From Vitis vinifera (lineage: Eukaryota > Streptophyta > Magnoliopsida > Vitales > Vitaceae), in assembly GCF_030704535.1 (NCBI RefSeq), contig NC_081813.1:6161001-6225000 (forward strand): a DNA stretch of 64,000 nt. The letters run 5' to 3'. The notes beneath the pieces are model-generated. The model saw only the letters and a list, made by a program, of their open reading frames with translations, was not told the origin of the DNA and ran no database searches. A program made the translations under genes and the position numbers. Shown in pieces: positions 2,722 through 64,000 of this stretch; position 1 is the stretch's first letter; the number at the start of each line of letters is the position of its first letter.

Positions 2722-2854
2722 GCTTTCTAATCCTTCCCCTTCCCTCTCTTCTCCTCCTTAATTTCCCAATAGCTGCAGACACAAGTCATTCCTTTTCTCC
2801 TTCCAATTTGTCTTTCTTCTTTCTGATCTTCTCCTTAGAATTTCTCATACATCA

Positions 2855-5551
2855 ATGGGAAACGTTTGCTCAGTCTCCATTTCCACCGAGGACATCGCTG
2901 GCCGCTGCTGTGATTGCACTGCTGCTCGAGCAAATTACATATGCAAGCTTCAAGAAAATCGGGTTACTTTGAGAACAGAGCTTCAAAAGTTAAGGGAGTT
3001 GAGGAACGATGTGAAGAGGAAGGTGGATGTGGCTGAGAGGCAACAAATGAAGCGTCTGGATCAAGTGCAAGGCTGGCTTTCCAGGGTGGAAGATATGGAA
3101 ACTGAAGTCACTCAACTGATTGGAGATGGTGCAGAGAACATTGAGGAGAAACGATTTTGTGGTAGCTGCTATCCCAAGCATTGCATCTCCAGCTACACGT
3201 TGGGAAAGAAAGTGGTCAGGAAGCTACAACAAGTGGCTGCCCTAATGAGCGACGGTCGTTTTGAGGTGGTGGCTGATATTGTACCTCCAGCTGCTGTGGA
3301 GGAAATCCCCAGCGGAACCACTGTGGGATTGGAATCAACATTTGACAGAGTTTGGAGGTGTCTCGGAGAAGAACATGTGGGGATGATCGGCTTATATGGG
3401 TTGGGGGGCGTTGGGAAGACCACCCTCTTGACCCAAATCAACAATCATTTCCTTAAAACATCCCACAATTTTGATGTCGTAATTTGGGTAGTGGTTTCCA
3501 AAACTCCGAATCTAGACGAGGTTCAGAACGAGATTTGGGAGAAGGTGGGATTCTGTGATGATAAATGGAAAAGCAAAAGCCGCCATTTGAAAGCCAAAGA
3601 CATCTGGAAAGCCTTGAACGAAAAGAGGTTTGTGATGTTGTTGGATGACCTGTGGGAACAAATGAATCTGTTAGAAGTGGGAATTCCACCTCCCCACCAA
3701 CAAAATAAGTCCAAGTTAATATTCACCACTCGATCTCTGGACTTGTGCGGCCAAATGGGAGCTCAAAAGAAAATCGAAGTAAAATCTTTAGCATGGAAGG
3801 ATTCGTGGGATTTGTTTCAAAAATATGTGGGAGAGGACACCCTTAATTCTGATCCAGAAATCCCTGAGCAAGCTGAAATTGTTGCACGAGAGTGTTGCGG
3901 TTTGCCACTGGTGATAATTACCATAGGGCGAGCTATGGCTTCTAAAGTGACACCCCAAGATTGGAAGCATGCAATTAGAGTACTACAAACATCTGCATCA
4001 AAATTTCCAGGTATGGGGGACCCAGTGTACCCACGTTTGAAATACAGCTATGATAGTTTGCCCACCAAAATAGTTCAATCTTGCTTCTTATATTGTTCTT
4101 TATTCCCAGAAGATTTTTCCATAGATAAAGAAGCTTTGATATGGAAATGGATTTGTGAAGGATTTTTAGATGAATATGATGACATGGATGGAGCCAAAAA
4201 TCAGGGATTCAACATTATCAGTACCCTCATTCATGCATGTCTACTTGAGGAACCTTTAGATACTAATTCTGTAAAATTGCATGATGTGATACGTGATATG
4301 GCCTTGTGGATAACTGGTGAAATGGGGGAGATGAAGGGCAAGTTTTTGGTACAAACAAGGGCCGATTTAACCCAAGCCCCTGAGTTTGTCAAATGGACGA
4401 CGGCGGAAAGGATTTCACTGATGCACAACCGAATTGAGAAGTTAGCAGGATCGCCCACATGCCCCAATCTCTCGACACTTCTTCTGGATTTGAATAGGGA
4501 TTTGCGGATGATAAGCAATGGTTTTTTTCAATTTATGCCCAATCTAAGAGTGTTGAGCTTAAATGGCACCAATATAACTGACTTACCACCAGATATTTCT
4601 AATTTGGTTTCATTGCAATATCTTGATTTATCCTCGACAAGGATATTGAGGTTTCCAGTTGGGATGAAGAATCTCGTAAAATTGAAGAGATTGGGGTTGG
4701 CCTGTACATTTGAACTGTCTTCAATTCCACGAGGACTAATATCAAGTCTTTCAATGCTGCAAACAATCAACTTGTACCGTTGTGGATTTGAACCAGATGG
4801 TAATGAGTCATTGGTAGAGGAATTGGAGAGTTTAAAATACTTGATCAATTTACGTATCACCATAGTAAGTGCCTGTGTGTTCGAGAGATTTTTAAGTTCC
4901 AGAAAGTTACGGAGTTGCACTCATGGAATCTGCCTCACGAGTTTCAAAGGTTCAATCTCACTTAATGTATCATCTCTTGAAAATATAAAGCATCTCAATT
5001 CGTTTTGGATGGAATTTTGTGATACTTTGATCAAGTTTGATTGGGCAGAGAAAGGAAAGGAAACAGTGGAGTATAGCAATCTTAACCCAAAGGTCAAATG
5101 CTTCGATGGCCTTGAGACTGTGACCATCTTAAGATGCCGGATGTTGAAGAATCTGACATGGCTTATTTTTGCCCCAAACCTCAAATATCTTGATATACTA
5201 TATTGTGAACAAATGGAAGAAGTGATAGGAAAAGGTGAAGAGGATGGAGGAAATCTGAGCCCATTCACAAATCTCATACAAGTACAATTACTTTATCTAC
5301 CACAACTGAAGAGTATGTACTGGAATCCCCCGCCCTTTCTTCACCTGGAGAGAATTTTAGTAGTTGGCTGTCCGAAGCTGAAGAAGCTGCCACTCAACTC
5401 CAACAGTGCCAGGGAACGTAGAGTTATGATTGAAGGAGAGGAAGAGTGGTGGAATGAGTTAGAATGGGAGGATGAAGCTACTCTAAATACTTTCCTTCCC
5501 AATTTCCAAGCATTAGATAAGAACAAGGGGGTAAGGTATGATTCCAATTAA
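2855..5551 (+). CDS. CC-NBS-LRR disease resistance protein (RPS5-like CNL)
   Basis: Uninterrupted 898-residue frame. CNL proteins are intracellular immune receptors that sense pathogen effectors. Domains in order: an N-terminal MGNVC motif (Gly2 and Cys5 fit N-myristoylation and palmitoylation, as known for RPS5, suggesting plasma-membrane attachment); coiled coil about 25-90; P-loop GLGGVGKTT at 182-190; kinase-2 MLLDDLWE at 261-268; RNBS-B IFTTRS near 289-294; GLPL at 349-352; RNBS-D CFLYCSLFPEDF near 410-421; an MHD-position motif reading LHD at 475-477; then leucine-rich repeats from about 515 to 870. The length is normal for the family. The ATG sits after a pyrimidine-rich leader and gives the expected start. 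An intron may replace the last six codons (see 5531-5623). Two decayed paralogues of its 5' end follow on the same strand. All NB motifs are present, so the gene looks functional; the effector it might detect cannot be told. Confidence 0.93.
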   Translation: MGNVCSVSISTEDIAGRCCDCTAARANYICKLQENRVTLRTELQKLRELRNDVKRKVDVAERQQMKRLDQVQGWLSRVEDMETEVTQLIGDGAENIEEKRFCGSCYPKHCISSYTLGKKVVRKLQQVAALMSDGRFEVVADIVPPAAVEEIPSGTTVGLESTFDRVWRCLGEEHVGMIGLYGLGGVGKTTLLTQINNHFLKTSHNFDVVIWVVVSKTPNLDEVQNEIWEKVGFCDDKWKSKSRHLKAKDIWKALNEKRFVMLLDDLWEQMNLLEVGIPPPHQQNKSKLIFTTRSLDLCGQMGAQKKIEVKSLAWKDSWDLFQKYVGEDTLNSDPEIPEQAEIVARECCGLPLVIITIGRAMASKVTPQDWKHAIRVLQTSASKFPGMGDPVYPRLKYSYDSLPTKIVQSCFLYCSLFPEDFSIDKEALIWKWICEGFLDEYDDMDGAKNQGFNIISTLIHACLLEEPLDTNSVKLHDVIRDMALWITGEMGEMKGKFLVQTRADLTQAPEFVKWTTAERISLMHNRIEKLAGSPTCPNLSTLLLDLNRDLRMISNGFFQFMPNLRVLSLNGTNITDLPPDISNLVSLQYLDLSSTRILRFPVGMKNLVKLKRLGLACTFELSSIPRGLISSLSMLQTINLYRCGFEPDGNESLVEELESLKYLINLRITIVSACVFERFLSSRKLRSCTHGICLTSFKGSISLNVSSLENIKHLNSFWMEFCDTLIKFDWAEKGKETVEYSNLNPKVKCFDGLETVTILRCRMLKNLTWLIFAPNLKYLDILYCEQMEEVIGKGEEDGGNLSPFTNLIQVQLLYLPQLKSMYWNPPPFLHLERILVVGCPKLKKLPLNSNSARERRVMIEGEEEWWNELEWEDEATLNTFLPNFQALDKNKGVRYDSN

Positions 5552-17039: not shown

Positions 17040-19055
17040 ACAAGGCTCCATTGGGTAAGTAGAGCTGCAGATTTGCAATCTTGTTTAAAACTGGTTTTAG
17101 GCAAAAGAGGATAAGATGGATTAAATGTTGTATTTCCACGCCCACCTTCTCTGTTTTCATTAATAGCACTCCGTCTGGTTTTTTCCAAAGTTCTAGGGGA
17201 TTGAACCAAGGGGATCCTCTTTCCCCTTACTTGTCCATTTTGACTATGGAAGCTCTCAATCACATGTTGACAAGGGCCAAGAGTGGGGGCTTCATTACAA
17301 GTTTTAAGTTGGGTAGAAGGGATGGGGAGGGGTTGGAAGTGTCTCATCAGTTGTTTGCCGACGGTACTTTGATTTTCTGTGATGCCAATCCTAATCAATT
17401 TGAAATTTTTGAGTTAAGTGTTTATGTGGTTGAGGTAATCTCTGACCTAAAAATTAATCTGGAGAAGAGCAAGATTATTCCTATTGGGGGAGTAGCTAAT
17501 GTCGAGGACTTAGTCTTGGTGTTAGGCTACAAAATAGGGAAGTGGCCCACTTCCTATTTGGATTTTCCCTTGGGAGCCCTCTTTAAGCCTTCTAGGGTGT
17601 GGGATGTAGTGAAGGAGAGATTTAGGAAAAGACTAGCCATGTGGAAGAGGCAATTTGTTTCCAAGGGTGGGAAATTCACACTTGTCAAAAGCATTGTATC
17701 AAGCCCTCTGATTTATTTCATGTCCTTGTTTGTCATCCCAAGTAAGGTCAATTTAAGACTTGAGAAGATCCAAATAGACTTTCTACGGGGAGATGGAGCT
17801 TTAGAGAAAAGGCCTCATTTGTTTAATTGGAATCTAGTGCACTTGGGAAAGAAGGATGGGGGTCTCAAAATATGCAACCTTTATGTCCTTAACAAAGCTT
17901 TGCTTGGTAAGTGGAATTGGAAATTTGTTACAGAAAGTGATCCCTTATGGAAACAAATTATAATACGGAAGTCCGGAGACGAGGACGAGGGATGGTGTTC
18001 AAGAGGGGTGAGAGGTGGCTATACAGTGGGTGTGTGAAAATTAAGTCATCAAACATGAATTAGAGGCAATAAAAAGTATGTCTCACTTTTTACTTGGGAA
18101 CGGGAAAAAGGTTATATTCTAGAAAGACTTGTGGTGCGAGGATCAAACTTTGGAAGAAGTCTTTCCAAATTTATTTTCTATAGCCTCCAACAATGAGGGA
18201 TGGGTGGCAGATGCTTGGGAGCTAGAAGGGGAAGGGGGTGGTAGGAGCTCATTTTTCAAGGCAATTTAACAATTGGGAAATGGTCGAAGTGGAGAGTTTC
18301 TTTTGGAAATAACATTCGAATGAAAAGGGAAGTGGAGGACAAACTGAGGTGGAATGAATCCAAATGCAACAAGTTTTCAATTAGATCTCTCTATTCTTCC
18401 CTATCTAGGGGGGCATAGTGTGCCTTTTCCAATTAGTAATTTATGGAGGGCTTAGGCACCTTTGAAGGTTAGCTTTTTCACCTAGGAAGCATCTTGAGAT
18501 AGAATCCTTACTCTCGACCAGCTCAAAAGGAGGGGATCGACTTTCCCAAGTAGATGTTACTTGTGCAAAGGTGCAAAGGAAACAACAAACCACTCGCTTC
18601 TTCATTGCTCCAAAGTAAGAATGATGTGGCATCTGATTTTCTCTCTTTTTGGAGTGGAGTGAGTTATGCATTCTTCAATTAAAGGGCACTTGTTGGGTTG
18701 GCATGGCTCTTTTGTGGGGAAAAAACAGAAAAAAAAAGGGGTGAAAGGTTGCTCCCTTATATTTGATATGGACCCTTTGGAAGGAGAGAAACAAAACGGC
18801 ATTTAACGATGTTGAGCAATTCAACCAAACATTTAAATCCGTTTTTTTTTTTTTTTTGTATACTTTTGGGACCTAGGCTAGGGTGTATATAGAGGATCAC
18901 ACAATATCATTATTAGATTTCATAGATTGATTAAGCTTAAAGTAAAGAAAGGAGTCTTTTTGTTCCTTTCCCTAGGTTGTGTACTTTTCTACACCTCTTT
19001 TAGGCACCTTTAATACATGTTTTTCCCATTTGCCTATCAATAAAAAAAATAGATA
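17040..19055 (+). pseudogene. L1-type LINE fragment 2 (RT and zf-RVT regions, with 3' tail)
   Basis: The open part at 17081-18037 (318 residues) carries the C-terminal half of a non-LTR reverse transcriptase: RGLNQGDPLSPYLSI, then the catalytic YADD-type box altered to FADG (HQLFADGTLIF), then the thumb region with PHLFNW and GKKDGGLKI. After stops, a zf-RVT-like segment follows near 18480-18620 (LKRRGSTFPSRCYLC...LHC). The 3' end is the typical LINE tail CCTATCAATAAAAAAA near 19035-19052. It is truncated at the 5' end and dead; the changed FADG alone would disable catalysis. Confidence 0.82.
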
Positions 19056-19307: not shown

Positions 19308-19318
19308 CTCCCCCTCAA
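19308..19318 (-). other. Copia polypurine tract
   Basis: On the minus strand TTGAGGGGGAG lies immediately before the 3' LTR. It primes plus-strand synthesis in LTR elements. It overlaps the TGA stop of gag-pol (19315-19317). Confidence 0.85.
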
Positions 19319-22300
19319 GCTGGAGCATATACGTCATATGCACCAAGCTTGTTACAAATATATTTAATCCTAGGACCTCTGAGAGATTTAGTGAAGATGT
19401 CTGCTAGTTGATCATTTGAATTGACAAAACTTGTAGCAACACATCCTGATGCGATCTTCTCTCTAATGAAATGACAGTCAACTTCAATATGCTTGGTCCT
19501 TTCATGAAAGACTGGATTGGATGCAATATGTAATGCGGCCTGGTTATCACAGATGAGTTTCATCTGTTCATCCTTTCCAAATCTCAACTCCTGAAGAAGA
19601 TGTCTCAACCATATGAGTTCACATGTTGCCAAAGCCATAGCTCGATACTCGGCTTCAGCGCTAGATCTGGCCACTACATCTTGTTTCTTACTCTTCCAAG
19701 ATATTAGATTACCTCCAATAAAAACACAGTACCCTGAAGTGGAACGTCTATCTGTGGGTGAGCCAGCCCAATCTGCATCTGTGTAACCAACAACTTGAGT
19801 ATGACCTCTGTTCTCGTACAATACACCTTGGCCTGGTGTACTTTTGATATATCGAAGGATACGGATTACGGCATCCCAATGGCTATCACATGGTGACTGT
19901 AGGAATTGACTAACAACACTCACAGGAAAAGAAATGTCTGGACGAGTAATGGTGAGATAGTTCAATTTACCTACGAGCCGTCGATATCTCCCGGGGTCTC
20001 CTAAAGGCTCCCCCTGTCCTGGTACAAGTTTGACATTCGGATCCATAGGTGTGTCTACCGGTTTGCAGTCTAACATACCGGTTTCTTCCAGGATGTCTAA
20101 AGCATATTTCCTTTGGGAAAGGACCACACCAGAACTAGATTGAGCTATCTCAATTCCCAAGAAATACTTGAGTTTCCCCAAGTCTTTGGTCTGAAAGTGG
20201 GTAAAAAGATGTTGCTTTAGTTTTTGAATACCATCCTGATCACTGCCTGTAATGACGATGTCGTCCACATAAACAACCAGATAAATACACTGCCCCAAGG
20301 AGTTATGATGATAAAAAACTGAATGGTCTGCTGTACTGCGAAGCATGCCAAACTCTTGAACAACAGAACTAAAACGGCTAAACCATGCTCGAGGAGATTG
20401 TTTCAAGCCATATAGAGAACGGCGTAACCTGCACACTAAACCAGACTCCCCCTGAGCAACAAAACCAGGAGGTTGCTCCATATAAACTTCCTCGGCAAGA
20501 TCACCATGAAGGAAGGCATTTTTAATATCCAACTGATAAAGAGGCCAAGAACACATAGCAGCCATGGAGAGAAGCAAGCGGACAGAAGCAATCTTGGCAA
20601 CAGGAGAGAATGTGTCACCATAATCAGAACCATAAACTTGAGTATAGCCTTTAGCAACTAAACGGGCCTTAAGGCGATCAACCTGACCATCAGGACCAAC
20701 CTTAACTGCATAGACCCAACGACAACCAACTGTAGATTTACCAGAGGGTAAAACAACAAGATCCCAAGTGCCATTAGAGTGCAGAGCAGCCATTTCATCC
20801 ACCATTGCCTGTCGCCAGCCTGGATGGGAAAGAGCTTCATGGGTGCTCTTTGGAAGAGAAACAGAGGATATAGCAGAAACAAAAGCAGAATAGGGTGAAG
20901 ATAATCGATGATAACTCAAAAAATTGTAAATAGGATGAGGATTACGAGTAGAGCGAGTACCTTTCCGAACAACAATAGGTAAGTCATTAGGAGAAGGCAG
21001 AGCCGGGGCAGGTGAAGCCGAAGGGATAGGAAGTGAGTCAGCAGGTGCCTCAGGAAAAGGGAGAGGAGCAACGACACGAGGGCGACGATGATAAACCTGA
21101 AGTGGTCGAGGGGGCATAACATCAGGTGGGGAGACAATGGGAATGGGCAAGACTTCAGAAACAGGAAGAGACTCAGAAGTGGTGGAAAAGAATGGTGAGT
21201 CCTCAAAGAAGGTGACATCAGCGGAGATAAAGTACCGATGAGTCTCAAGGGAATAACAACGATAACCCTTCTGAAGTCTGGAATATCCCAAGAAAAGGCA
21301 CTTCATGGCTTTGGCGGAAAGCTTGTCCTGTCCAGGAGTGAGAATATGAACAAAGCAAGTACAACCAAAGACACGAGGAGGAAGGAAATAAAGTGGTTGG
21401 TCAGGGAAAAGAAGGGAGTGAGGAATCTGATCGTGTAAGACAGAGGAGGGCATACGATTAATCAAATAACAAGCGGTAAGAACAGCGTCCCCCCAAAAGC
21501 GAAAAGGAACATGACTATGGAGGAGGAGAGTACGAGCTGTCTCAACAAGATGTCGATTCTTGCGTTCAACTACCCCATTTTGTTGAGGAGTATGAGCACA
21601 AGAAGACTGATGAAGAATCCCATGATGAGACATAAACGAAATAAATTGGGCTGAAAAATATTCCCTGGCATTGTCACTGCGTAACACACGAATAGAAATA
21701 TTGAACTGGGTTTGGATTTCAGTATAAAATTTCTGGAAAATAGAGAATAACTCAGCTCGATTCTTCATTAAAAATAACCAAGTACATCGAGAATAGTCAT
21801 CAATGAAAGTGACAAAATACTGAAATCCTAAAGTAGACGCAGTCCGACAAGGACCCCAAACATCAGTGTGGACAAGCTCAAAAGGAGACTTTGCCCGATT
21901 ATTCAAACGCTTTGGGAACGAGACACGAGTATGTTTCCCAAGCTGACATGACTCACACGGAAGCGACGACAAAGTTGAAAAACGAGGAACCATCTTCTGG
22001 AACTTGGAGAGACTAGGGTGGCCCAGACGATTGTGAATGAGGAGAGGAGCATCAGTGGAAATGCAAACTGCAGGAGATGAATCTGAGGTGAGGTGATAGA
22101 GGCCTTGAGACTCACGTCCTATGCCAATCGTCTTCCCCGTACTCCGGTCCTGCAAGGTCACAAATTTATCAGAAAAAGTAATAGAGCAATTAAGAGTACG
22201 AGTGATTTTGCTGATGGAAATAAGATTAAAAGGACATTCAGGAGTATAAAGGACAGAAGTGAGAGGTAGAGAAGGCAGAGGAAGGGCCAAACCAATACCT

Positions 22301-23355
22301 TTAGCCACAGTTTGAGAACCATTAGCTAAGGTAACAGTAGGTAAATCAGAGGTAGTAGTAATAGAGGAGAAAAGATCCTTATTACCAGATAGGTGATCAG
22401 ATGCTCCAGAATCTAGAATCCAGGGTCCAAGAGAAGATGTGTGGGTAAGGCAGGCAGAGGCATTACCAGGCTGGGCAACAGAGGCAATAGATGCCTGAGA
22501 TGTCTGAGATGCGGAGGAGCTCGGAGGCTGAGACAGCGGAGAATCAGAGGACTGGGCCATATGGGCAGTGCGAGGAGGTCTTCCATGTAACTGATAGCAA
22601 CGATCGCGAGTGTGGCCAAGTTTATTGCAATAGGTGCAATGAGGACGTTGGCCTCTACCTCGGGTACCACTGCGTCCTCCTCGAGAGGTAGTTTGAGAAA
22701 CTAACATAGAAGAATCTGAAGCGCTATCAGATGGCAAAGTCTGAGTGGACGAGATACGGAGGAAGCGAGCAAACACATCATCCAAGGACGGAACTGATGA
22801 ACTACCAAGAATCTGATCACGAATAGGCTCAAGATCCGGACGGAGGCCAATAAGAGTAAGGACCATGAAGAACTTGTCAAGCTGTGTTTGTTGAGCCCCA
22901 ACATCAGGAGTAAGAGGCATCACAGTCAAGAACTGCTCCTTAAGAGAGGCAATCTGACCAATATAAGTAGATAGATCCAAGTCCTGTTGGCTGAGATGGA
23001 CAATAGCAGAAGCCACCTTATAAAGACGCTGGATATCATTCGTGTATAATCCTTTGGCCTGAGTCCAAAATTTAAAACAAGTTTTATAGGCCTGAAGATG
23101 AAGAAGAATCCGGGGATCAACCGATTGCCATAATACACTACACAACTGTGCATCTATCTTCCTCCACTGTACGCGGTCAACCTCAGGGATATCTGCCTCC
23201 TGGGTAACCAAATGATCCTCATATCCTTGACCCATAAACCAAAGTTCAACAGAGGCAGACCAGGAGAGATAATTCTCACTGCCAACCAATTTCTCTGAGG
23301 TAATCAGAGGAGATCCAGAGAGAACAGACGTAAAGATCTGATTTTTGGTGGTCAT
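19315..23355 (-). CDS. Copia gag-pol polyprotein
   Basis: A single frame of about 1346 residues from the ATG at 23355; an in-frame GTG two codons earlier is not needed. Numbered from that GTG, domains in copia order are: gag UBN2-like region (SENYLSWSASVELWF, near 28-42); zinc knuckle CTYCNKLGHTRDRC at 242-255; aspartic protease WILDSGASDH near 314-323; GAG-pre-integrase (HNRLGHPSL); integrase with the DDE residues in HTDVWGP, RSDNAREY and NGVVERKNR; reverse transcriptase with YVDDIVITGSD; RNase H with TDADWAGS, SSAEAEYRA and CDNQAAL. Copia order (integrase before RT) is clear. No stop or frameshift is present. It supplies all activities for retrotransposition in cytoplasmic particles. Confidence 0.96.
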   Translation of the reverse strand: MTTKNQIFTSVLSGSPLITSEKLVGSENYLSWSASVELWFMGQGYEDHLVTQEADIPEVDRVQWRKIDAQLCSVLWQSVDPRILLHLQAYKTCFKFWTQAKGLYTNDIQRLYKVASAIVHLSQQDLDLSTYIGQIASLKEQFLTVMPLTPDVGAQQTQLDKFFMVLTLIGLRPDLEPIRDQILGSSSVPSLDDVFARFLRISSTQTLPSDSASDSSMLVSQTTSRGGRSGTRGRGQRPHCTYCNKLGHTRDRCYQLHGRPPRTAHMAQSSDSPLSQPPSSSASQTSQASIASVAQPGNASACLTHTSSLGPWILDSGASDHLSGNKDLFSSITTTSDLPTVTLANGSQTVAKGIGLALPLPSLPLTSVLYTPECPFNLISISKITRTLNCSITFSDKFVTLQDRSTGKTIGIGRESQGLYHLTSDSSPAVCISTDAPLLIHNRLGHPSLSKFQKMVPRFSTLSSLPCESCQLGKHTRVSFPKRLNNRAKSPFELVHTDVWGPCRTASTLGFQYFVTFIDDYSRCTWLFLMKNRAELFSIFQKFYTEIQTQFNISIRVLRSDNAREYFSAQFISFMSHHGILHQSSCAHTPQQNGVVERKNRHLVETARTLLLHSHVPFRFWGDAVLTACYLINRMPSSVLHDQIPHSLLFPDQPLYFLPPRVFGCTCFVHILTPGQDKLSAKAMKCLFLGYSRLQKGYRCYSLETHRYFISADVTFFEDSPFFSTTSESLPVSEVLPIPIVSPPDVMPPRPLQVYHRRPRVVAPLPFPEAPADSLPIPSASPAPALPSPNDLPIVVRKGTRSTRNPHPIYNFLSYHRLSSPYSAFVSAISSVSLPKSTHEALSHPGWRQAMVDEMAALHSNGTWDLVVLPSGKSTVGCRWVYAVKVGPDGQVDRLKARLVAKGYTQVYGSDYGDTFSPVAKIASVRLLLSMAAMCSWPLYQLDIKNAFLHGDLAEEVYMEQPPGFVAQGESGLVCRLRRSLYGLKQSPRAWFSRFSSVVQEFGMLRSTADHSVFYHHNSLGQCIYLVVYVDDIVITGSDQDGIQKLKQHLFTHFQTKDLGKLKYFLGIEIAQSSSGVVLSQRKYALDILEETGMLDCKPVDTPMDPNVKLVPGQGEPLGDPGRYRRLVGKLNYLTITRPDISFPVSVVSQFLQSPCDSHWDAVIRILRYIKSTPGQGVLYENRGHTQVVGYTDADWAGSPTDRRSTSGYCVFIGGNLISWKSKKQDVVARSSAEAEYRAMALATCELIWLRHLLQELRFGKDEQMKLICDNQAALHIASNPVFHERTKHIEVDCHFIREKIASGCVATSFVNSNDQLADIFTKSLRGPRIKYICNKLGAYDVYAPA

Positions 23356-23917
23356 ATTCACGTATTTGGATCGAAGAGAGCCCTAAGATGGGTTCAGATT
23401 TCGGCGGAGAGAGAAAAACAGTGAAACCACGGCTGTGAGAGGTGCAATCAATGGAGAAAAAAAGGTCGTGACGTGCCTGGAGAGGAAGAGAAGCAGCACC
23501 CAAGCCTCGGGGATGGAGGGGGAGCCCTGTCGGAGGTGGCCGGAATGGCAAGAAGGCCAAAAACAGGGAAAAAATGGAGATGCAGGGCTCGGGGAGGACT
23601 GCCGGAGGGCTAGAAGGCCAAGACGGCGCCGAACGAGCCTGGAGAGGTGTCGGAAGTGGCCGGAAAGTGGGCCACGCGCCGTCACGCGCCGGCGCGTGGG
23701 TGACAGGCCGGAGGAGAAGGGCGGCGCGTGGGGGCGCGTGAGATGCCGGTTGCCGGTGGGGTTTCCACTGGCGTGTAGATCAGCCTCCGGCGGTTCGGAA
23801 TATGTGGTCGTTTCCCGGAAAAAAGGTCGCCGGAAAATGTCGCCGGAAAAGGTTGCCGGCGTGATGGAGATCCGACGGCGATGAGGTTGAAAAAAAAAAA
23901 TTAGGTTTTCTCCTTTG
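23356..23917 (-). other. Copia untranslated leader
   Basis: About 560 bases between primer site and gag, rich in CCGG/GCCGGC words (CCGGCAACCTTTTCCGGCGA) and much more GC-rich than its surroundings. Open frames seen here on both strands are composition artefacts. The leader of the relative at 61123 keeps the same CCGGCAAC-TTTTCCGG phrases. Confidence 0.75.
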
Positions 23918-26298: not shown

Positions 26299-26676
26299 AT
26301 GAAGCAATTGCTTTTGGGGGCTGGTTAGGTTGGCCAGTTATGTTTTCTAGCTTCATCTATGCATACTTTATTAGCAGTAACACCTGCTCCTATAACTTCA
26401 TTTGTATCTTATAATAGCATTTTGGACCTGATCTAAATAGTAAAATGAAATTTGCAGGCAACTTCACTAGCATCTTTTACAATTGATTTCTCTATCAAGG
26501 CATTAAGAAACCCAGAGCTGTAAAAGGTGATTATCCCGCTTTCAAGTTATGACCTGCTTTCTCAATGAGCAAAAATAAAATTCTCAGAGTATTCACATTT
26601 CAGAGCATATCCTGAGCATATTTGTGGGGCAAGAAATCTGAATTGAAGCAGTACGTCAGTTACTAAATGAAATTAC

Positions 26677-27402
26677 CTCTCTCTGGAGTTTCTCCTGATA
26701 AAATCCCGCTGTCAAAGTTGCATTTGTGGCAAGAACCCCAATCCGTAAAGGACTCCCAGCTTCAAGTGGCTTCAACTTTGCATTCTTGAGCTCCCTAGCA
26801 ACACACTCACCCATATGAAGGAAAGGAACAGAAGATCCCCTAGAAATCTCATCATGCCAAGAATGTGAAATATGGCAAGGCATTACTATGCATTGAACTC
26901 CTGAACGCTCAAGAAAAGCCCTCTTACTTTGCAGATTCCCCACGATTGGTGTATGATCCATTCTGCTACTTTCTCTTTTAGTACTCAGTAGAGGAAAATG
27001 ACTTCTTTCATGGGATAAAAGTTGCTTGTTTAACACTGGATCAGAACACAGAACAAAAGGAAGACTATCTCCTCCATCTTTCGAGCTCCATTGAACTAGT
27101 TTCTTCAAGAAATTTAGAGTTGAATCAACCGATACCCCTCCAATAATACCAACAGTTGTTGCTTGATTGATGAACAAACTAGCAGAATCACTGTTTGTTG
27201 AAGCTGCATCTGAACCAGAACTATTCTTTGATTCAGGCAAATTGCCACTCTCATCAGTTTGTAAGAGAGTGGAAGATGGGGGTACCGCTAGAATTGGATT
27301 TTTCATTGTTCTATGGAGGATTCTATGCTTATGTACATTGCCCATCATATGTGATGGGTATTTCAATGAGTGGAAAGACATTGCCATGCTTCCATCAAAC
27401 AT
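26677..27402 (-). CDS. Asp/Glu racemase family protein, exon 1 (N-terminal part)
   Basis: 242 codons from the ATG at 27402; a GTG-led extension to 27426 is probably 5' UTR, since TTTTCAG at 27426 looks like an acceptor. The product belongs to the aspartate/glutamate/hydantoin racemase superfamily, whose members interconvert L- and D-amino acids or related acids using two cysteines. Residues 1-80 are Ser- and basic-rich and may be a plastid transit peptide (inference). The fold starts at TVGIIGGVSVDSTLNFLKKL (83-102). The first catalytic region is CIVMPCHISHSW, with Cys176 in the MPC motif; HMGECV and RIGVLATNATLTAGFY follow, as in plant homologues. The exon ends GAG before GTAATT and joins exon 2 at 15218 in phase 0. 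The second catalytic Cys seems absent (exon 2), so racemase activity is not assured. Confidence 0.88.
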
Positions 27403-28235
27403 CTCGTTAAGTGAAAAACCCACCACTGAAAATCCTCACAACTTTGTATGGGTTTTCAAACTTCACAGCCTATGAATTAAAAGCTGCCATTAAAACCCCA
27501 AAATGAAACCACGGCCACAAATCCCCCACTCTCCACTGAAACCCACCACTCAAAACTGGAAGCATTCAAAAATTTTCAAATTTCAGCATACAATACCAAA
27601 AGATTTTAAATTAGAAACCCAAAAAAAATGATCGGCCTCTAAAAAGAAAAAGCGAAAACATTAAAAAAATTTCTAGTTCCTTCCCTAAAACCCCAAAGTC
27701 AATCTGGGATTCTAAATTAGATACCCTAGAATTCAATACCCACCCTTAAAGTGAGCAAATATCCAAATCAGCTCCAAAACCCCAACTTCATCTGGAGCTC
27801 TAAATCAGAGACCCTAAAAGCAAAATCCCACCTCCCAAAACCAGCAAATTTTTGGAAATTTTGGGATTCTGAATCACGGACCCCACAAAAACAAAAACCC
27901 ACCTCCAGAAACCCAAACCGTTTAGTTGGCTTTCTGAATACCCGGTTCCTCCAGAGACGGCATGGCTAAGCATGGCGATTCAAGAATTCTCTCTATATTT
28001 CAGACCCAAAAGCAAAACCCACCCCTAAACCCCTTAAAAGCATCAAAATCTAAATTCTCACTAACAAGTGGGATTGATTAAAGAAAGGGAAGAACATACA
28101 AGGTAACCTAAACTGTATTCACATATATGAACCAATTCATTGGATTCGGTAAGAGTCTTTGTCGCATTTTCCCTCCTTTCTCACCTTTTTTCACCACATG
28201 TAAGTTGGGAGTTTTCAGTTTTGATAATTGTACAG
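27403..28235. other. 5' region of the racemase gene
   Basis: This is the promoter and 5' UTR side of the minus-strand gene. The sequence is C/A-rich on the + strand with many AAACCC/CCAAAA words and no convincing frame. A 5' UTR intron is possible because of the acceptor-like TTTTCAG at 27426, but the donor cannot be fixed. Confidence 0.4.
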
Positions 28236-39870: not shown

Positions 39871-39996
39871 TCGCTCATCCCTATGCTCAATGGTCCTCCT
39901 CCTCCCCCTCCAATAATTCGTGCCCAATAATTGAAATTGAAATCTCAATATATAGTTTCAACACCCACTTGTTTCAAAAGAGAAACCTTCACCATT

Positions 39997-41106
39997 ATGT
40001 GGAGCAACCTCCCCTTCGACCTCCTAGCAAACATCTTCTCCTTCCTCCCGGCGGACTCCTTGGCACTCGCCAGCTCAGTCTGCAAGCACTGGCACACATG
40101 CGTTACTGCTTACCCGGCCACGGCCGCTGGGGCTCGCAATCCGCCGTGGTTCGTGGCCTTGCCTGTGCGGAACCGTGGTCACACTTGCTACACGCATAAC
40201 CCAATTATTGATACTTGGCATGGGCTTTTTCTAGGCTTCCTTCCTCATGCTATTCGCCCGGTTGCCTCCATTGGAGGGCTTGTTTTATTAAGGTCCACTA
40301 CTTCTACTACTCTTCAGTTAGCGATTTGCAATTTGTTCACCAAGCGATATTGGAGCCTCCCAATGTTGAACATTGCCCGGACCAACCCGGCGGTGGGGGT
40401 TGTTTTCGGGTTGGACGAGAGTCCAGATGTCCGATTTTCGAGCTTTAGGGTGTATGTGGCTGGGGGGATGTCGGAGGCGCCAAGTGGGGGTGCGGCGTAC
40501 GAACCGACATTGGAAATGTACGACTCGTGGCAAGACAGATGGGATATCATGGGCAGAATGCCGGTGGAGTTTGCGGTGAGGCTCACAGTGTGGAGTCCCA
40601 ATGAGAGCGTGTACTCAGGCGGGGTCCTATATTGGATGACCTCCGCCCGGGCATATAGTGTGATGGGGCTCGACATTGAGTCGAACAGCTGGCGGGAGCT
40701 GAGCGTGCCGATGGCGGAGCGGCTAGAATTTGCGGCACTAGTGCGGTGGAACGGCAGGCCGACGCTAGTGGGTGGCACGTGCAACGAAGGCGCATGCATA
40801 TGGGAGCTTGGCGAGGGGGATACATGGGGGTTGGTTGAAAAGATCCCAATTGAACTCGGCATGAGATTATTAGGGGTTAAGGGAAGTTGGGAAAGTACTA
40901 AATGTGTGGGAAGTGATGGGGCCTTGTGCTTGTACAGGGACTTAGGGTCAGGAATGGTAGTTTGGAGGGAGGTAGAGAAGGGTAGATGGGAATGGCTCTG
41001 GGTTGAAGGGTGCTGCTCGGTAGGAGGAAAACAAGTCCAAAATATCCCAATTAAGGGACTGCTTCTTCACCCAAATCTTGCTACCTCAGGCTTTCCAGAT
41101 AAATGA
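39997..41106 (+). CDS. F-box protein, kelch-like C-terminal region
   Basis: An intronless frame of 369 residues from ATG at 39997; an upstream in-frame TTG at 39931 is not a credible start. Residues 1-43 form the F-box (MWSNLPFDLLANIFSFLPAD...VCKHWHTC), which binds SKP1 and recruits substrates to an SCF ubiquitin ligase. The remaining part resembles F-box/kelch proteins: paired blades such as VYVAGGM...EMYDSWQDRWDIMGRMP (about 155-190), LDIESNSWRELSVPMAE (about 225-241) and ...GEGDTWGLVEKIP. Plant F-box/kelch proteins of the At5g43190 kind have this size and start, but I am not certain of the subgroup. The substrate is unknown. The gene is markedly GC-richer than its surroundings. A TATA box with inverted repeats lies upstream. 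Confidence 0.9.
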   Translation: MWSNLPFDLLANIFSFLPADSLALASSVCKHWHTCVTAYPATAAGARNPPWFVALPVRNRGHTCYTHNPIIDTWHGLFLGFLPHAIRPVASIGGLVLLRSTTSTTLQLAICNLFTKRYWSLPMLNIARTNPAVGVVFGLDESPDVRFSSFRVYVAGGMSEAPSGGAAYEPTLEMYDSWQDRWDIMGRMPVEFAVRLTVWSPNESVYSGGVLYWMTSARAYSVMGLDIESNSWRELSVPMAERLEFAALVRWNGRPTLVGGTCNEGACIWELGEGDTWGLVEKIPIELGMRLLGVKGSWESTKCVGSDGALCLYRDLGSGMVVWREVEKGRWEWLWVEGCCSVGGKQVQNIPIKGLLLHPNLATSGFPDK

Positions 41107-48982: not shown

Positions 48983-49203
48983 ATATTATCACTATTATCA
49001 TTATTATTATTATTACTATTCTTATTATTATTACCATAGTCATTATTATTATTAATTCAATTTTCCAAATATTATTATTATTATTATTATTGTTATTATT
49101 GTTATTATTGTTATTATTATTATTGTGATTGTCATTATTATCATTATTATTATTATCATTGAAAATCTATATTCTCGCAATTTAATCTCCTAAAGTTCAT
49201 CTC

Positions 49204-49247
<44 letters not shown>

Positions 49248-49377
49248 TCAAACTCTCAAAATCTTATTATTATTGTTATTATTAATTCAAATTTTCAAAA
49301 TCTTATTGTTATTATTATTAATTCAAACTTTCAAAACCTTATTATTATTATTATCATTAATTAGAACTCTCGAAATC

Positions 49378-49412
<35 letters not shown>

Positions 49413-49645
49413 TCAAACTCTTAAAATCTTATTATTATTATTAATTCAGACTCTCAAAATCTTATTATTATTATTATTATTAACTCACACTTTCAAAACC
49501 TTATTATTATTATTATTATTATTATTAATTCAAACTTTCGAAATCTTATTATTACTATTATTATTATTATTATTATTATTATCATTAATTAGAACTCTCG
49601 AAATCTTATTATTATTATTATTATTATTAATTCAAACTCTCAAAA

Positions 49646-49688
<43 letters not shown>

Positions 49689-49905
49689 TCAAACTCTCAA
49701 AATCTTATTATTATTATTATTATTAATTCAAACTTTCAAAATCTTATCGTTATTATTATTATTATTATTAATTCATACTTTCAAAACCTTATTATTATTA
49801 CTATTAATTCAAACTTTCAAAATCTTATTGTTATTATTATTATTATTATTATCATTAATTCAAACTTTCAAAATCTTATTATTACTATTATTACAAATTC
49901 AACTT
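48983..49905 (+). repeat. Compound (ATT)n array with a 20-30 bp spacer motif
   Basis: Long TTA/ATT runs are interrupted at fairly regular distance by ATTCAAACTTTCAAAATC or the variant ATTAGAACTCTCGAAATC, about 15 times. It looks like a microsatellite that spread by duplication of run plus spacer. The 219-codon leucine-rich open frame at 49273-49932 follows from the repeat and is not a gene. Confidence 0.92.
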
Positions 49906-50734
49906 TCAAAAGTCTATGGTCTCGCAGTTTAATTTCCTAAAGTCCGTTTCTCATTTTCTTTAACAAATTTCAATTTAATTACCGGATCTCTAATATTTTA
50001 AATTTAATTCCAAATACTCAAATTTTCAAATAAGCTCCAAAGAATCCAATTTTCACTCAAACAGTTTTAATTCTACTTCGGTTCTCAAATAAACCTTCTG
50101 TTTTTCTTGGTTCTACATAAGCATGAATGGAATTTGTGAGACTAATTCGTGCAAGATAGATCGGGCTTTGGTGGGGGCCCGACACATATGATTTTATGAT
50201 CGATTGATTGATTGACTGATTTAATTGTCATGCGTGATTGATTTGTTCTGCTTTGTGATATGTATATATTCATCCTATATAGATTTACTAACCCCCCTCT
50301 TGATAGCGCATATTGGTTCACCACCCAGGTATGTATTTTCTCGCATCATGGTCACTCCTTGTGCTTGTTTTAATTCTCATACGTGCATGATCGATTCGAG
50401 TATTCATTGTTTTTCTCATCAATTGCCACATCAGCTTCATTTTATTAGTAGAGACCCTACTTTAGGGACTTAGAGGGGTGCTATGGTTTTTACCGTACCT
50501 TCCCGATAAGTAACCTGACCCCCGAGCTTGATTCGATTTTTCGTAAGATCACCTTTTTCAAAATAAGGAGTCGCACTTAGGGTTTTCTTTATTATTTTGT
50601 TTACCCTTTTAAAAATAAAACAAAAATAAGTGGCAACTCCAAATCATTTTCTTAAACAATAAAAATCATTTTTCAAATTAAAATCGAGCTCGCCATCGAG
50701 TGGGAAACGCATGAGCCGAAATGCGGGATCCACA

Positions 50735-53579: not shown

Positions 53580-56500
53580 ATGGATGCTTTGCAGGTCATT
53601 GCTTCAGCTACACAGATTGTTTCGGGTATGGTAGGGGCCATCAGTGCATTAGAACAAGCCTCCAGAAATCTTGATGAGGCTCCAAAGAGAGTTCGAAGCT
53701 TAGAGGATTTTGTATGTGATCTAGAGAACTTGACACAAAGAATTAAGCAAAAGCATGCCTACAAGCTTCATAACCCCCAGTTAGAATACCAAATTCAAAG
53801 CTTGAACAGCCTGATTGAACGGCTGCATCCAAATATCAGGAAGGCAAGAAGGATTGTGTCCAAAAGTAGGGCTAAGAACTTGGCTAAGGTGGTATGGACT
53901 TCAGTTGCAGGAGACCCCCTTGAGAAGCTAGTAAATTCAATCCGGGACGACTTGAATTGGTGGCTTGAATCTCAAAGATTGGCTGGAAGTGTTGAGAAAG
54001 TAATAGAATCAACTGCTAGAACTATTCCAGTACGGCTGAAAATAAAGCCTGAACAAGGCTACCCAATTTCTAGTAAGTGTAACTTTGTGAGAACTTTACT
54101 AGAACAAGACAGCTCTCACCGGGTCATTCTAATTGTTGGGTTATCTGGTATTGGAAAGTTGTGCTTGGCTCGTCAAGTAGCTGCCGATCCTCCGATGAAG
54201 TTTGTGGATGGAGCAGTTGAACTTGGATTTGGACAATGGTGCAGCAGAGCTGCTTGTAATGAAAGTAAGGACAAATACCAGAGGCGCTTGGCAAGAAAAA
54301 TTTGTAAATTTCTGGTCCAAATAGGATTCTGGAAGAAGATTAGGGATGAGAATAGTGGAGATCTTGAGTATATGTGTTGCTTGCTTCAAGAAGCCTTGTA
54401 TGGGAAAAGCATTCTAATCCTTCTTGATGATGTGTGGGAGCAAGACATAGTTGAGCGGTTTGCAAAGCTGTATGATAACAATTGCAGTTACTTGGTAACA
54501 ACAAGAAATGAAGCTGTATATGAGATTACAGAGGCCCAGAAGGTAGAGTTAAACAAAGATGACATAAAGGAAATAAGCAAGGCTATTCTTCTCTACCACA
54601 GCCACCTTAGTGAGGAAGAGGTCCCGGTATGGGTTTTTCTATTTATGCTTTGGAATTTATGATATTGATGTGTGAAGCAATAAACTGATTATCTCTTAAT
54701 TTTTTGTTGTCAACACATTAAAGCCTATGGATTTTACAGGATTTGTAATAGGCACCTTCTAGGATTCTCTCATGAGATTTATCAGGCATCCTGACATTTC
54801 CCCATTTTTTATTAAGCCATTTGGCCTGTGGTTTTTGGCACCCACTTGCTAAGTACTTAGGAAGACAAATTTTTTGCCTCAAATACCTTTTGACAAAATG
54901 AAGAAAAGCCTATTACAAACTAATTCTGGGGTTCAACTGTATGACTCAATACCAACAATCAGATTGTCTGCCTGTGTTCAGCTTCCAGTTTTGATAATTT
55001 TCCCTTCTTTGATGTTCAAAGGCCAGAAACCTAAAGTTTAAAAGCACCGATCCTAGCATTTACCTAGTCTAGTTCATCCAGATTCAAATGAAGTCTGTTC
55101 TCTATTTCTTGATAGTTTATGCTCTGTTTAATCTCATTATTCATTTGTTCTGCTTGGTTCATTTCTGATATGTTCTTATATGCTCAATAGGGTGTGGCAG
55201 AAAGCTTGCTTGAACGTTGCGGCCATCACCCACTTACAGTAGCTGTCATGGGTAAGGCTCTCAGGAAAGAAATAAGAGCTGAGAAATGGGAAAAGGCCAT
55301 CATCAACCTATCCACCTATGCCACTTGTGCACCAGGTCCCATCTCATATGTGAATGAGAAGGAAGCTGAGAACACACTGACCATTTTTCGGTCATTTGAG
55401 TTTAGTCTTGAAGCAATGCCTGAAGACTCCAGAAGACTCTTTATAGCTCTTGCAGCCCTTTCATGGGCAGAACCTGTACCAGAAGCTTGTCTAGAATCTG
55501 TTTGGTCAGTTGTTGGGCAGGACAACCTGTTTCCTCTGGTTGTCTGCAAGCTTGTTGAGGGATCCCTACTGATGAAAACCGACTCATTTCCCTTGTACCA
55601 GGTTCATGACATGGTATCATTATACCTTGATTGCAGGACACATGATTCAGTTAAGATTCTACTCTCTGAATCTAGCCCAGAAAGGATTGCATTTATCAGC
55701 CCCTGGCTGTTGACTTTTGGAAAAGAAACTGTGAAACAAATTGCTGAGCAGAGAACAGAGTTTTGTCTGAGCGGTTTGGAAGAAAAACAGGCAGCTATCA
55801 CCTTAGAAGCCATTATCCAGGCTTTGATGGCTAGCGAATCCATTTCTGAACTTGAAGCTAGTAGAGCAAGCTTTAGTAGTATATTGGGACCTAGGATTGA
55901 GAACTTGATTTCATCCAACTCACAGGACCTAATTGCAGTGACTGCAGAAGCTGTCACAATAATATTCAGTAAAAGTGATTATCAGAAGTATTTTCCATCC
56001 CTTGAAACTACTGGTGCAGTTGAAAAGCTGGCAAGTATATTAGAGAACTGTGAGGATCTGATGATCCAGACTAACATCTCAATTGTCCTTGCAAAACTTG
56101 CAGAATTTGGAAGCCTGGATACAGTTGATAAGGTCCTTCAGAGCATTCTCATTAACCAGCTGGCTGATTTACTTTCTCCCAACAATGAGGAATGGCATGA
56201 GAGTGTGTTTACTACATTGATGTCATTGATAAAAGCAGGAAAGTTGAACGCCATTGAAAGGATGTATGCCCTTGAGATTGATAAGAGTCTGATTAAACTT
56301 CTTGAGAGTGGATCTGAAGTTGCACAACACCATGCTATTGTCACATTGAAGGCATTTTATGAGGTGGGAGGCCCTCCTGCAAATGGGTCTCTTCAACCCG
56401 GTAATCTAAACCTCTTACCCTGGCAAGCAAGGCTTAGTTTGGAAAGGTTCGTTTTGTCAGATATAAGTATTCCCCTTGCACCAAAGCCACAGACTTTTGA

Positions 56501-57284
56501 ATATCTCATTCACAAGCTGCTTGACCATGATATCAAGCAGGTACTGGAGGCAATGCAAGATCTCATACCAATTGTTGAGAAAGCAGGAGATTCAAGGATT
56601 AGAAAAATGATTTTACAGAGTCCCCTCATCAAAAGATTATCAGAACTCTTGCAGTATGGGCACTCGGAACAAAACACTATAAGATCTGAATCTGCCTTTT
56701 TATTAACTAAGCTAGCTTGCTCTGGTGGAGAACCCTGCATCAAGAAATTTCTTGAGCATGATATTATTCCTGAGCTGGTCAAGTTGATGCATTGCAATGC
56801 CCCAGAGCTGCAGGATTCATCCTACACAGCTTTACACCAGATGCTTTTTGGCAATGGTGGGGTACTCATTATCAACCAGATGCTTCAGACGGGTCTCATT
56901 GAGAGGTTGGCTCATTCGCTTGAGGGAAAATCGATGAAGACACGGGAAGTGAACATGCATTGCATTTTGGATATAGTCGAGTTGGGAAGCAAAGCCTGCT
57001 TAGAGCGAATGCTTTCTTTGCAAGTGGTGGAGAAGCTTGTGAGGATTGAAAAGGCCAATGGGGGCTCGGGCGAAACCCTGGTTGGATTTCTCAGAGGAAT
57101 AGATAAGTGCAAGCATCTTTTAACAGCAGAGCGTAGGGTGATGAAGCAACAAGTGGTCAGGAAGGTGAGGGCAGCTCTGAAAGGCCATAAATTTGGAGTT
57201 CAGATTTTAGCAGCTCTAGATGCCTGTGTTACTGAGGGATCAAAAGGTGCCGGTAGTAGTTCTACTGGTCGACAAAGAAAATAG
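53580..57284 (+). CDS. NB-ARC protein with armadillo-like repeats (RLS1-type NB-ARM)
   Basis: Exons are 53580-54626 and 55191-57284 (donor CCG before GTATGG, acceptor CTCAATAG, phase 0); the product has 1046 residues. Start MDALQVIASATQ; an upstream in-frame TTG is ignored. Residues 1-150 form a helical N-terminal region. The NB-ARC follows: P-loop GLSGIGKL at 187-194, where the usual Thr/Ser after Lys is Leu; kinase-2 ILLDDVWE at 280-287; LVTTRN at 305-310; CGHHPL for GLPL at 359-364; VHD for MHD at 487-489. From about 530 to the end there are helical armadillo/HEAT-like repeats (for example PELVKLMHCNAPELQDSSYTAL) instead of LRRs. Rice RLS1, an NB-ARM protein tied to chloroplast breakdown in leaf senescence, is the nearest described type that I know. 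A role in senescence or defence signalling is inference. A TRIM lies 215 bp after the stop. Confidence 0.9.
54627..55190 (+). other. Intron of the NB-ARM gene
   Basis: 564 bases from GTATGG to CTCAATAG. Splicing joins EEEVP to GVAESLLERCGHHPL, restoring the NB-ARC between RNBS-C and GLPL positions. The intron is T-rich with no repeat noticed. Confidence 0.85.
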
Positions 57285-57847: not shown

Positions 57848-58129
57848 CAATGTTGGATTGGAATTATAGACTGTTATCTTGAAGGTTAGCTGAGGACTAA
57901 ATATTTTGTAGATTCTGTTTGTTTTGAGGAAAGATGGGTAGTTGAAGCTTTAGGAATTCACTTGTGCAAACTAGGAAGTTGTCTAGTGACTGTTTCTCCC
58001 TATCAGAATTGGCAGATTTCCAAGAAGCCACTTATTCTATTAAAACAGCAAGTCGGTATCTGAACCTGATACAAAAACCATCTTTGTTGGATAATCCAAT
58101 GAGAACCTGAATTCAGAGGAGGTTGGACC
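57848..58129. other. Spacer between TRIM and LINE
   Basis: No feature recognised. It may contain more of the LINE 5' side in decayed form. Confidence 0.4.
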
Positions 58130-59207
58130 ACAAGAAAGGTGAGGGATTCCTATGAGTTAAGCCTTTGGAAAGACATTAGAAAAGGATGGGAAGAGTTCTT
58201 TCTTAGAACTAGTATATGTATTGGAAATGGTAGACGTACAAGATTTTGGTGGGACAGTTGGGTTGGGGAGTCTAAGTTGAAAGATGTTTACCCTACACTT
58301 TTTAGGCTACTTCCCACAAAAATGCTACAATGGCAAACTTATGAGGGAGGGAAGGGGGTGGAGGTGGTTGTTGGGAGGTTCATTTTAGAAGACCTTTCCA
58401 AGATCGGGAGTTAGAGGAGGTGACTCATTTTTTGGAACACATTTCTTCGTTAAAAGTGCAAGAAGGGGATGACACTTTAATATGGAAAGTTGATGGGAGG
58501 GGAAAGTATAGTGTCGAGTCTTATCATAATTCTCTAAGGGCTGAGAACAATTGATTATTCCCAGCTAAAGAGATTTGGTGATCATGTACTCCTCTTAGAA
58601 CTCGTTGTTTTGCCTAGGAAGCAGTTTGGAGGAAGATATTAACTGTAAACATGTTAATGAAGAAAGGATGGTCCATGGTTAATAGATGTAGTCTTTATAA
58701 AGATACCGAAGAATCAGTTGATCATATTTTGATTCATTATGATAAGACAAGGGAGCTTTGGACATTGTTGTTAACAATTTTTGGTTTGGTTTGGGTGTTC
58801 CTGACTTCAGTGAGAAATCTTATCCTAGGATGGAAATTCAAGGGGTTAGGGAAGAAGAAAAGAGCAATTTGGCAGTTGCCTCCAATTTGTCTATTTTGGT
58901 GTATTTGGGGAGAGCACAACCGAAGGACCTTCGAAGATGAAGAATTATCATACCAAAGTTTGAGGGATCTCTTTATACGTTTGCTTGTAGAGTGGTCCCA
59001 ACAGTTTTTGGATTCAAAAAATCCCTCTTATCTGAATTTTTTGGATGCTCTTTACTATGGCTAGCCTTGCTCTTTTTTAGGTTTTTTTTTTCTTTTATGG
59101 TGCTTGGTTTGGTTTTCTTTGTGTGTATTGCCTATATATGTCAGGTGTGGCCCCTGTTTTTGGCATCTCTTAATACAAGCCTTTGTCTATCAAGAAAAAA
59201 AAAAAGA
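58130..59207 (+). pseudogene. 5'-truncated L1-type LINE (zf-RVT end and tail)
   Basis: Reads GNGRRTRFWWDSWVGES (58226-58276) and, after stops, KKGWSMVNRCSLYKDTEESVDHILIHYDKTRELWTLL (58657-58767), the zf-RVT region that ends plant L1 ORF2; the zinc-finger pattern is degraded (CSLY for CxxC). A stretch LFWCIWGEHNRRTFEDE follows, then a long 3' UTR and the tail TGTCTATCAAGAAAAAAAAAAA near 59188-59206. No reverse transcriptase is left. It is a dead, 5'-truncated copy. Confidence 0.8.
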
Positions 59208-61969: not shown

Positions 61970-64000
61970 ATGGCTACTAAAAGTTCCATTTTTTCCTCTG
62001 TCACATCTAGATCTCTTATGATTACTTCGGAGAATTTGGTTAGTAGTGAAAATTATTTGTCCTGGTCTGCCTCTGTGGAGCTTTGGTTCATGGGTCAAGG
62101 TTATGAGGATCACCTTGTTACACAGGAGGCGGATATCCCTGAGGTTGACAGAGTATAATGAAGGAAGATAGATGCATAGTTATGTAGTGTGTTATGGCAA
62201 TCAATTGATCCTAAGATTCTGCTTCATCTTCGAGCCTACAAAACATGTTTTAAATTTTGGAATCAGGCGAAAGGGCTATACACGAATGATATCCAATGTC
62301 TTTATAAGGTGGCTTCTTCTATTGTTAATGCTAGACAACAAGACATGGATTTATCTACTTATATTGGCTAGATTGCCTCTCTTAAAGAGGAATTCTTGAC
62401 CGTGATGCCTCTTACTACTGATGTTGCGGATCAACGAACACAGATTGACAAGTTCTTCATGGTTCTTACGCTTATTGGCCTCCGTCCAGATCTTGAGACC
62501 GTCCGCGATCAGATTCTTGGCAGTTCCTTCATTCCATCCTTGGATGATGTGTTTGCTCGCCTCCTCCGTATCTCCTCCACTCAGACTTTGCCATCTAATA
62601 ACACTTCAGATTCTTTTGTGTTAGTTTCTCAAACTAACTCTCAAGGAGGACGCAGTGGTAACTGAGGTAGAGGCCAACGTCCTCATTGCACCTATTGCAA
62701 TAAGCTTGGCCACACTCGTGATCGATGTTATCAGTCACATGGGCGGCCTCCCCGCACTGCCCACGTGGCCCAGTCATCTGATCCTCAGCCACCTCAGCCA
62801 CCTCAGCCTTCCAATTCCTCCACATCTCAGGGTATTTCCCTCACTGACAATGAGCATGATGACTATCTCCGCTATCAGGCCACTAAGTCAGCTTCTGTTG
62901 CTTCTGTTGCCCAGACTGGTAATGCTTCTGCTTGTCTTACCCACACATCTTCTCTTGGACCTTGGATTCTAGATTCTGGCTCTTCTGATCACACATCTAG
63001 TAATAAGGATCTTTTCTCTTTTAATAATACTACCTCTGCCTTACCTACTATTACTTTAGCTAATGGTTCCCAAACTATGGCTAAAGGTTTTGGTTTAACT
63101 CATCCTCTCTCTTCTGTCCTTTATGCCCCTGAGTGTTCTTTTAATCTTATTTCCATCAGTCAAATAACTCGCACTCTTAACTGTTCTATCACTTTCTCTG
63201 ATAAATTTGTGACCTTGCAGGACCGGAGTACGGGGAAGTCGATTAGCATAGGACGTGAGTCTCAAGGCCTCTATCACCTCACCTCGCCTTCAATTCCTGT
63301 AGTTTGCATTTCCACTGATGCTCCCCTCCTCATCCATAGTCACTTATGCCACCCTAGTCTATCCAAGTTCCAGAAAATGGTCCCTCATTTTTCATTTTTG
63401 TAGTCACTTGCGTGTGAGTCCTGTCAACTTGAGAAACATACTCGTGTCTTGTTCCTAAAACGTTTGAATAATCAGGCAAAGTATCCTTTTGAACTTGTCC
63501 ACATTGATGTTTAGGGTCCTTGTCGGACCGCGTCTACTTTAAGATTTCAGTATTTTGTCACTTTCATTGATGACTATTCTCGATGTACTTCGTTATTTTT
63601 AATAAAAAATCGAGCTGAGTTATTCTCTATTTTTCAGAAATTTTATGCTGAAATCCAAACTCAGTTCAATATTTCTATTCGTGTGTTACACAATGACAAT
63701 GCCAGGGAATATTTTTCTGCACCATTTACTTCATTTATGTCCCAACATGGGATCCTTCATCAGTCTTCTTGTGCTCATACTCCTCAACAAAATGGGGTAG
63801 CTGAATGTAAGAATCGACATCTTATTGAAACGGCTCGTACTCTCCTTCTTCATGGTAATGTTCCTTTTCGTTTTTGAGGGGACGCTGTTCTTACAGCATG
63901 TTATTTGATTAGTTGTATGCCCTCATCTGTATTACACAATTAGATTCCTCATTCTCTTTTTTTCCTTGACCAATCACTTTATTTCATTCCTCCTCGTGTT
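61970..64000 (+). pseudogene. Decayed copia gag-pol (gag to integrase)
   Basis: It starts ATGGCTACTAAAAGTTCC. It keeps gag, zinc knuckle, protease (DSGSSDH; near 62970), pre-integrase and integrase up to HTPQQNGV near 63777-63800. In-frame stops occur at 62156, 62369, 62663, 63401, 63512, 63875 and near 63943; several correspond to CAG, CGA or TGG codons of the intact copy changed by C-to-T or G-to-A. It retains about 20 residues between zinc knuckle and protease (near ISLTDNEHDDYLRYQ) that the intact copy lacks. Confidence 0.88.

Follow-up and report, generated by a model that had tools for sequence, protein, structure and literature searches.

According to a 2025 study of ferns, CC-NB-ARM proteins form a conserved cluster in the genomes of plants, and the rice member of this cluster, RLS1, could regulate immunity (PMC12512272). 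A review gives RLS1 as encoding an NB protein with a C-terminal armadillo (ARM) domain and records rapid leaf senescence in the rls1 mutant (PMC5751288). To go by a title cited in the fern study, an activated form of RLS1 acts together with RMC in cell death (PMC12512272), and a paper on nematode resistance employs RLS1 as a cell-death comparison in N. benthamiana (PMC10250356). An earlier, sequence-only reading of the Vitis vinifera DNA considered here called plant NB-ARM proteins a small, little-studied group; that description suits the flowering plants, but the architecture itself is established, as RefPlantNLR counts ARM among the repeat types of NLRs and reports that, in Selaginella, ARM-type repeats are the predominant kind of integrated NLR domain (PMC8559963). 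As to the nucleotide-binding pocket, the NLRexpress paper writes the P-loop consensus of plants as GbGGbGKTT, a motif that it terms highly invariant (PMC9519389).

The window, i.e., the whole stretch of DNA that was analysed, is 64,000 nt long and corresponds to positions 6,161,001-6,225,000 of the forward strand of contig NC_081813.1 in the V. vinifera assembly GCF_030704535.1; all other positions given here are those of the window. Within it, 53580-57284 is, according to the predicted gene model, an intact two-exon plant gene on the forward strand. Coding exon 1 (53580-54626, 1047 bases, residues 1-349) runs as an open frame from an ATG at 53580 to a GT donor at 54627, and contains a putative N-terminal helical domain, the P-loop, kinase-2 and the TTR motif. 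A predicted phase-0 GT-AG intron follows (54627-55190, forward strand), with GTATGG as donor, AATAG as acceptor and both of its flanks in frame; it refines the sequence-only reading, from whose account an intron was absent. Alignments to the PDB sequences of Apaf-1 and NRC4 continue over the exon junction at residue 349/350. Coding exon 2 (55191-57284, forward strand, 2094 bases) provides residues 350-1046 and the stop, and holds the end of the NB-ARC, the winged-helix region with VHD and the armadillo half; at this base composition, the probability that its run of 697 stop-free codons would arise by chance from any one start point is about 3e-24. The product is thus predicted to be 1046 aa long with zero internal stops, the TAG stop ending at 57284, and the idea of a pseudogene was set aside because the frame is intact. 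A search against NCBIfam gave no relevant match.

Mobile elements and other frames are found on both sides of the NB-ARM gene. A 1355-codon, apparently uninterrupted frame at 19318-23382 on the reverse strand encodes integrase and RVT_2 domains of the Copia retrotransposon type, and a second Copia-type element lies toward the window end (62666-63874, forward strand), the Pfam scan of it covering 62666-63400. A LINE-like RVT_1 reverse transcriptase fragment occupies 17063-18034 (forward strand), and frames located approximately 0.8 kb beyond the stop codon of the NB-ARM gene (58103-59061, forward strand) resemble, on visual inspection, remnants of LINE reverse transcriptases. Approximately 3.6 kb upstream of the gene is a long low-complexity leucine-run frame made of simple AT-rich triplet repeats (49186-49937, forward strand). 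Additionally, an Asp/Glu/hydantoin racemase domain is encoded by an open frame at 26659-27435 (reverse strand; 55.5 bits), and a gene at 39931-41103 (forward strand) encodes an F-box protein that is weakly matched by Kelch. An Rfam scan of the whole window matched 0 of 4227 families.

The NB-ARC domain that the sequence-only reading had recognized by its motifs was recovered by profile search, with PF00931 matching at 6e-22 and 78.5 bits, well over the Pfam cut-off of 23.5; the domain spans residues 171-392 (54090-55319, forward strand) and is split by the intron. The pocket motifs of such domains are listed in PMC9519389. All of the motifs that the reading had held to be placeable were located in the predicted protein, i.e., the P-loop GLSGIGKL (54138-54161, forward strand; residues 187-194), the kinase-2 or Walker B motif LLDDVW (54420-54437, forward strand; residues 281-286), VTTR (residues 306-309), GHHPL (residues 360-364) and the MHD-equivalent VHD (55602-55610, forward strand; residues 487-489), this last being placed by motif alone. 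The best PDB match of the domain is Apaf-1 (2.5e-8), and the next in kind is NRC4 (8.6e-8). The window also contains an intact-looking, single-exon CC-NB-LRR gene (2762-5548, forward strand), approximately 48 kb from the NB-ARM gene, which served as an internal control; its product has the P-loop GGVGKTTLL, an LHD and LRRs, is matched in Pfam by NB-ARC at 234.6 bits as well as by winged-helix and LRR domains, and matches plant NLRs in the PDB at 4.2e-112 and about 1e-31. Judged against this control, the NB-ARC of the NB-ARM protein is divergent in sequence, and no Pfam winged-helix family matched the NB-ARM protein, though one matched the control.

The P-loop departs from the canonical Walker A pattern GxxxxGK[ST] in carrying a leucine, Leu194, after the lysine. 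The codon is TTG (54159-54161), and the substitution is real in the V. vinifera sequence. Of the four PDB alignments printed, three are to Apaf-1 chains, in which Ser follows the P-loop lysine, and one is to NRC4, in which Thr does, in line with the earlier claim that Leu here takes the place of the usual Ser or Thr. Since the P-loop lies mid-way in an exon of 1047 bases, an alternative P-loop exon is unlikely, and a splicing artefact was set aside on the same ground, i.e., that the motif is well inside exon 1. In P-loop NTPases, the Ser or Thr following the lysine helps to bind the Mg-nucleotide. Because the lysine, the Walker B acids, the TTR arginine, the GHHPL proline and the VHD histidine are all kept, the effect of Leu194 may be to weaken hydrolysis and the Mg-dependent contacts to phosphate more than to abolish nucleotide binding, although this is among the weaker steps of the argument. 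Among the NB-ARM papers listed, titles and abstract openings mention no P-loop variant, though one may nonetheless have been published.

Turning to the C-terminal half, a putative armadillo-like solenoid extends over residues ~580-973 (55881-57062, forward strand), with its best stretch at residues ~786-928 and with matches to importin-alpha and designed ARM proteins. The Pfam Arm family PF00514 falls just short of its cut-off of 20.6 when the whole protein is searched (19.8 bits) and passes it when the C-terminal half (residues 487-1046) is searched alone (23.5 bits); the match lies at residues 864-890, and a further match, to ARM_ARMC5 at residues ~620-735, is below the Pfam cut-off. Within the PDB, the best match of the C half is the designed ARM protein 4rzp (1.4e-11), followed by importin-alpha chains, starting from 1.3e-5. 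With a three-repeat stretch of designed ARM, the score was 39.8 bits for the real C half as compared to 0.1 for the N half and no more than 7.4 for any of 500 shuffles. A profile built from a single designed ARM repeat of 42 residues does not discriminate, as it gives the C half 2.7 bits vs 7.9 for the best shuffle (500 shuffles made, 225 with any score). The helical hydrophobic moment of the C half, 1.036, is greater than that of all 300 shuffles (mean 0.861, maximum 0.971). ARM repeats in the C-terminal half are hence supported by the sequence, with their number and boundaries approximate.

The N-terminal domain (53580-54089, forward strand; residues 1-170) looks helical-bundle-like, but no Pfam family reaches its cut-off there. 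Residues 1-174 draw 13 weak Pfam matches, many of them to helical or coiled proteins and all below cut-offs, including Flagellin_N (E 0.0039), HeLo (0.026, the strongest among bundle-type families), PigL_N (0.079) and DUF7792 (0.13), as compared to one match for the reversed sequence and 2, 0 and 0 for three shuffles. HeLo was not accepted as the identity of the domain, as PF14479 scored 14.8 bits against a cut-off of 23.2 and PF17111 12.8 against 27.2, and a PDB search with the domain gave nothing below E 0.17. Asp2 is the sole charged residue among residues 1-24, and the 19-residue window at 6-24 ranks second in the protein for mean hydropathy (1.66); that the first helix could insert into a membrane is speculation.

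When these parts are set beside the known systems, the nearest named case is rice RLS1 (LOC_Os02g10900), as the sequence-only reading had proposed; like RLS1, the Vitis protein would have a resistance-type NB domain and, C-terminal to it, an ARM domain (PMC5751288), an arrangement called CC-NB-ARM in PMC12512272, and the kinship is one of architecture only. Two features of the class, an NB-ARC and C-terminal armadillo repeats, were found in the predicted protein, and the C-terminal LRRs of a canonical CC-NB-LRR protein were not. With Apaf-1 and NLRs of the NRC/ZAR1 type, the protein shares the NB-ARC, aligned over residues 183-476 for Apaf-1 and 169-388 for NRC4; however, Apaf-1 and the plant NLRs have GKS or GKT where the Vitis protein has GKL, and plant NLRs join an LRR tail to a canonical CC N-terminus, whereas the tail here is of ARM type. 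Apaf-1, for its part, has a WD40 tail and a CARD at its N-terminus. Importin-alpha and designed ARM proteins match residues ~580-973 through their ARM repeats but are without an NB-ARC, and the likeness to them is one of fold class, weak in the case of importin-alpha (from 1.3e-5). Exon 2 was compared with a prokaryote genome collection and exon 1 with viral contigs, both lacking plants by design, and neither the 12 pattern matches in the former nor the 21 in the latter were confirmed. The combination of NB-ARC and ARM, as predicted here, is already known, and Leu194 is the unusual part.

We consider the gene most probably to encode a STAND-type CC-NB-ARM switch of the RLS1 kind, at a probability of about 0.6, with the N-terminal bundle as output, the NB-ARC as switch and an ARM solenoid substituting for the LRRs. 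The further proposals of the sequence-only reading, that nucleotide may be bound yet not hydrolysed normally and that the ARM part may take over from the LRR as a sensing or scaffold surface, are conjectures. At rest, the protein would hold ADP and be closed by the ARM half and by the VHD contact; a change at the ARM surface would then open it, and the opened form might signal towards cell death or senescence, outputs that have been reported for rice RLS1. Speaking for such a switch are the intact 1046-aa frame, the NB-ARC, the ARM matches with their controls and the retention of the other pocket motifs, and speaking against it are the departure from the Walker A consensus, the divergence of the NB-ARC and the failure of the one-repeat ARM profile against shuffles.

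The presence of an NB-ARC would also suit an ordinary CC-NB-LRR gene with a misread tail. However, no LRR family in Pfam matched the whole protein (E up to 1) or the C half (E up to 10), and the LRR-type pattern LxxLxLxx[NCTS] occurs once in the C half, more rarely than in shuffles of it (3.6, sd 1.7), as compared to 12 times in the control NLR frame (residues 531-929). With the C half matching ARM proteins instead, i.e., Pfam Arm when searched alone, 4rzp and importin-alpha, a misread LRR tail has a negligible chance of being correct, and the earlier view of that half as ARM-like rather than LRR holds. The leading rival to a nucleotide switch concerns Leu194 itself, which might be a recent Ser-to-Leu change specific to a lineage or accession, neutral or mildly damaging and devoid of class-wide meaning. 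A lineage-specific change is possible because a single C-to-T substitution would turn TCG, the sole Ser or Thr codon one step away, into TTG; TCG also contains a CpG, a dinucleotide that mutates readily where methylated, and the frame is otherwise intact. We rate this explanation a serious contender, at somewhat less than even odds.

An unlikely, though not far-fetched, alternative is that the P-loop is truly degenerate and that the protein acts as a scaffold or helper without a nucleotide cycle, its NB-ARC being structural. There are precedents for a role being kept despite a non-functional P-loop, namely ADR1-L2, which can serve as a helper when its P-loop is not intact, rice Pb1, which is without a P-loop, and similar NLRs, degenerate P-loops also being described among Arabidopsis NLRs (PMC3478704, PMC3636237). 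Yet these sources concern NB-LRR proteins in the cases of ADR1-L2 and Pb1, unlike NB-ARM, the P-loop of ADR1-L2 was altered by experiment, and ADR1-L2 has P-loop-dependent functions as well. Furthermore, the retention here of every other named pocket motif, including the P-loop lysine and VHD, is unlike the decay of an unused site. Less probable still is a class-wide reading, whereby RLS1-like NB-ARMs would be a conserved plant class lacking the Mg-coordinating Ser/Thr, in which nucleotide would be held via the lysine, Walker B and VHD, cycling would be slow or nil, the ARM half would act as the gate in place of LRRs and the output would pass through a HeLo-like N-terminal bundle, the nearly uncharged first helix of which could insert in the membrane.

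NB-ARM proteins constitute a plant switch class outside of the LRR paradigm, with one characterized named case, RLS1. If Leu194 is private to this Vitis genome, then its interest would be small. If, on the other hand, the leucine is conserved, then the gene would offer a natural P-loop, lacking Ser/Thr but accompanied by the other pocket motifs, with which to ask whether hydrolysis, apart from nucleotide binding, is needed for the NB-ARC switch.
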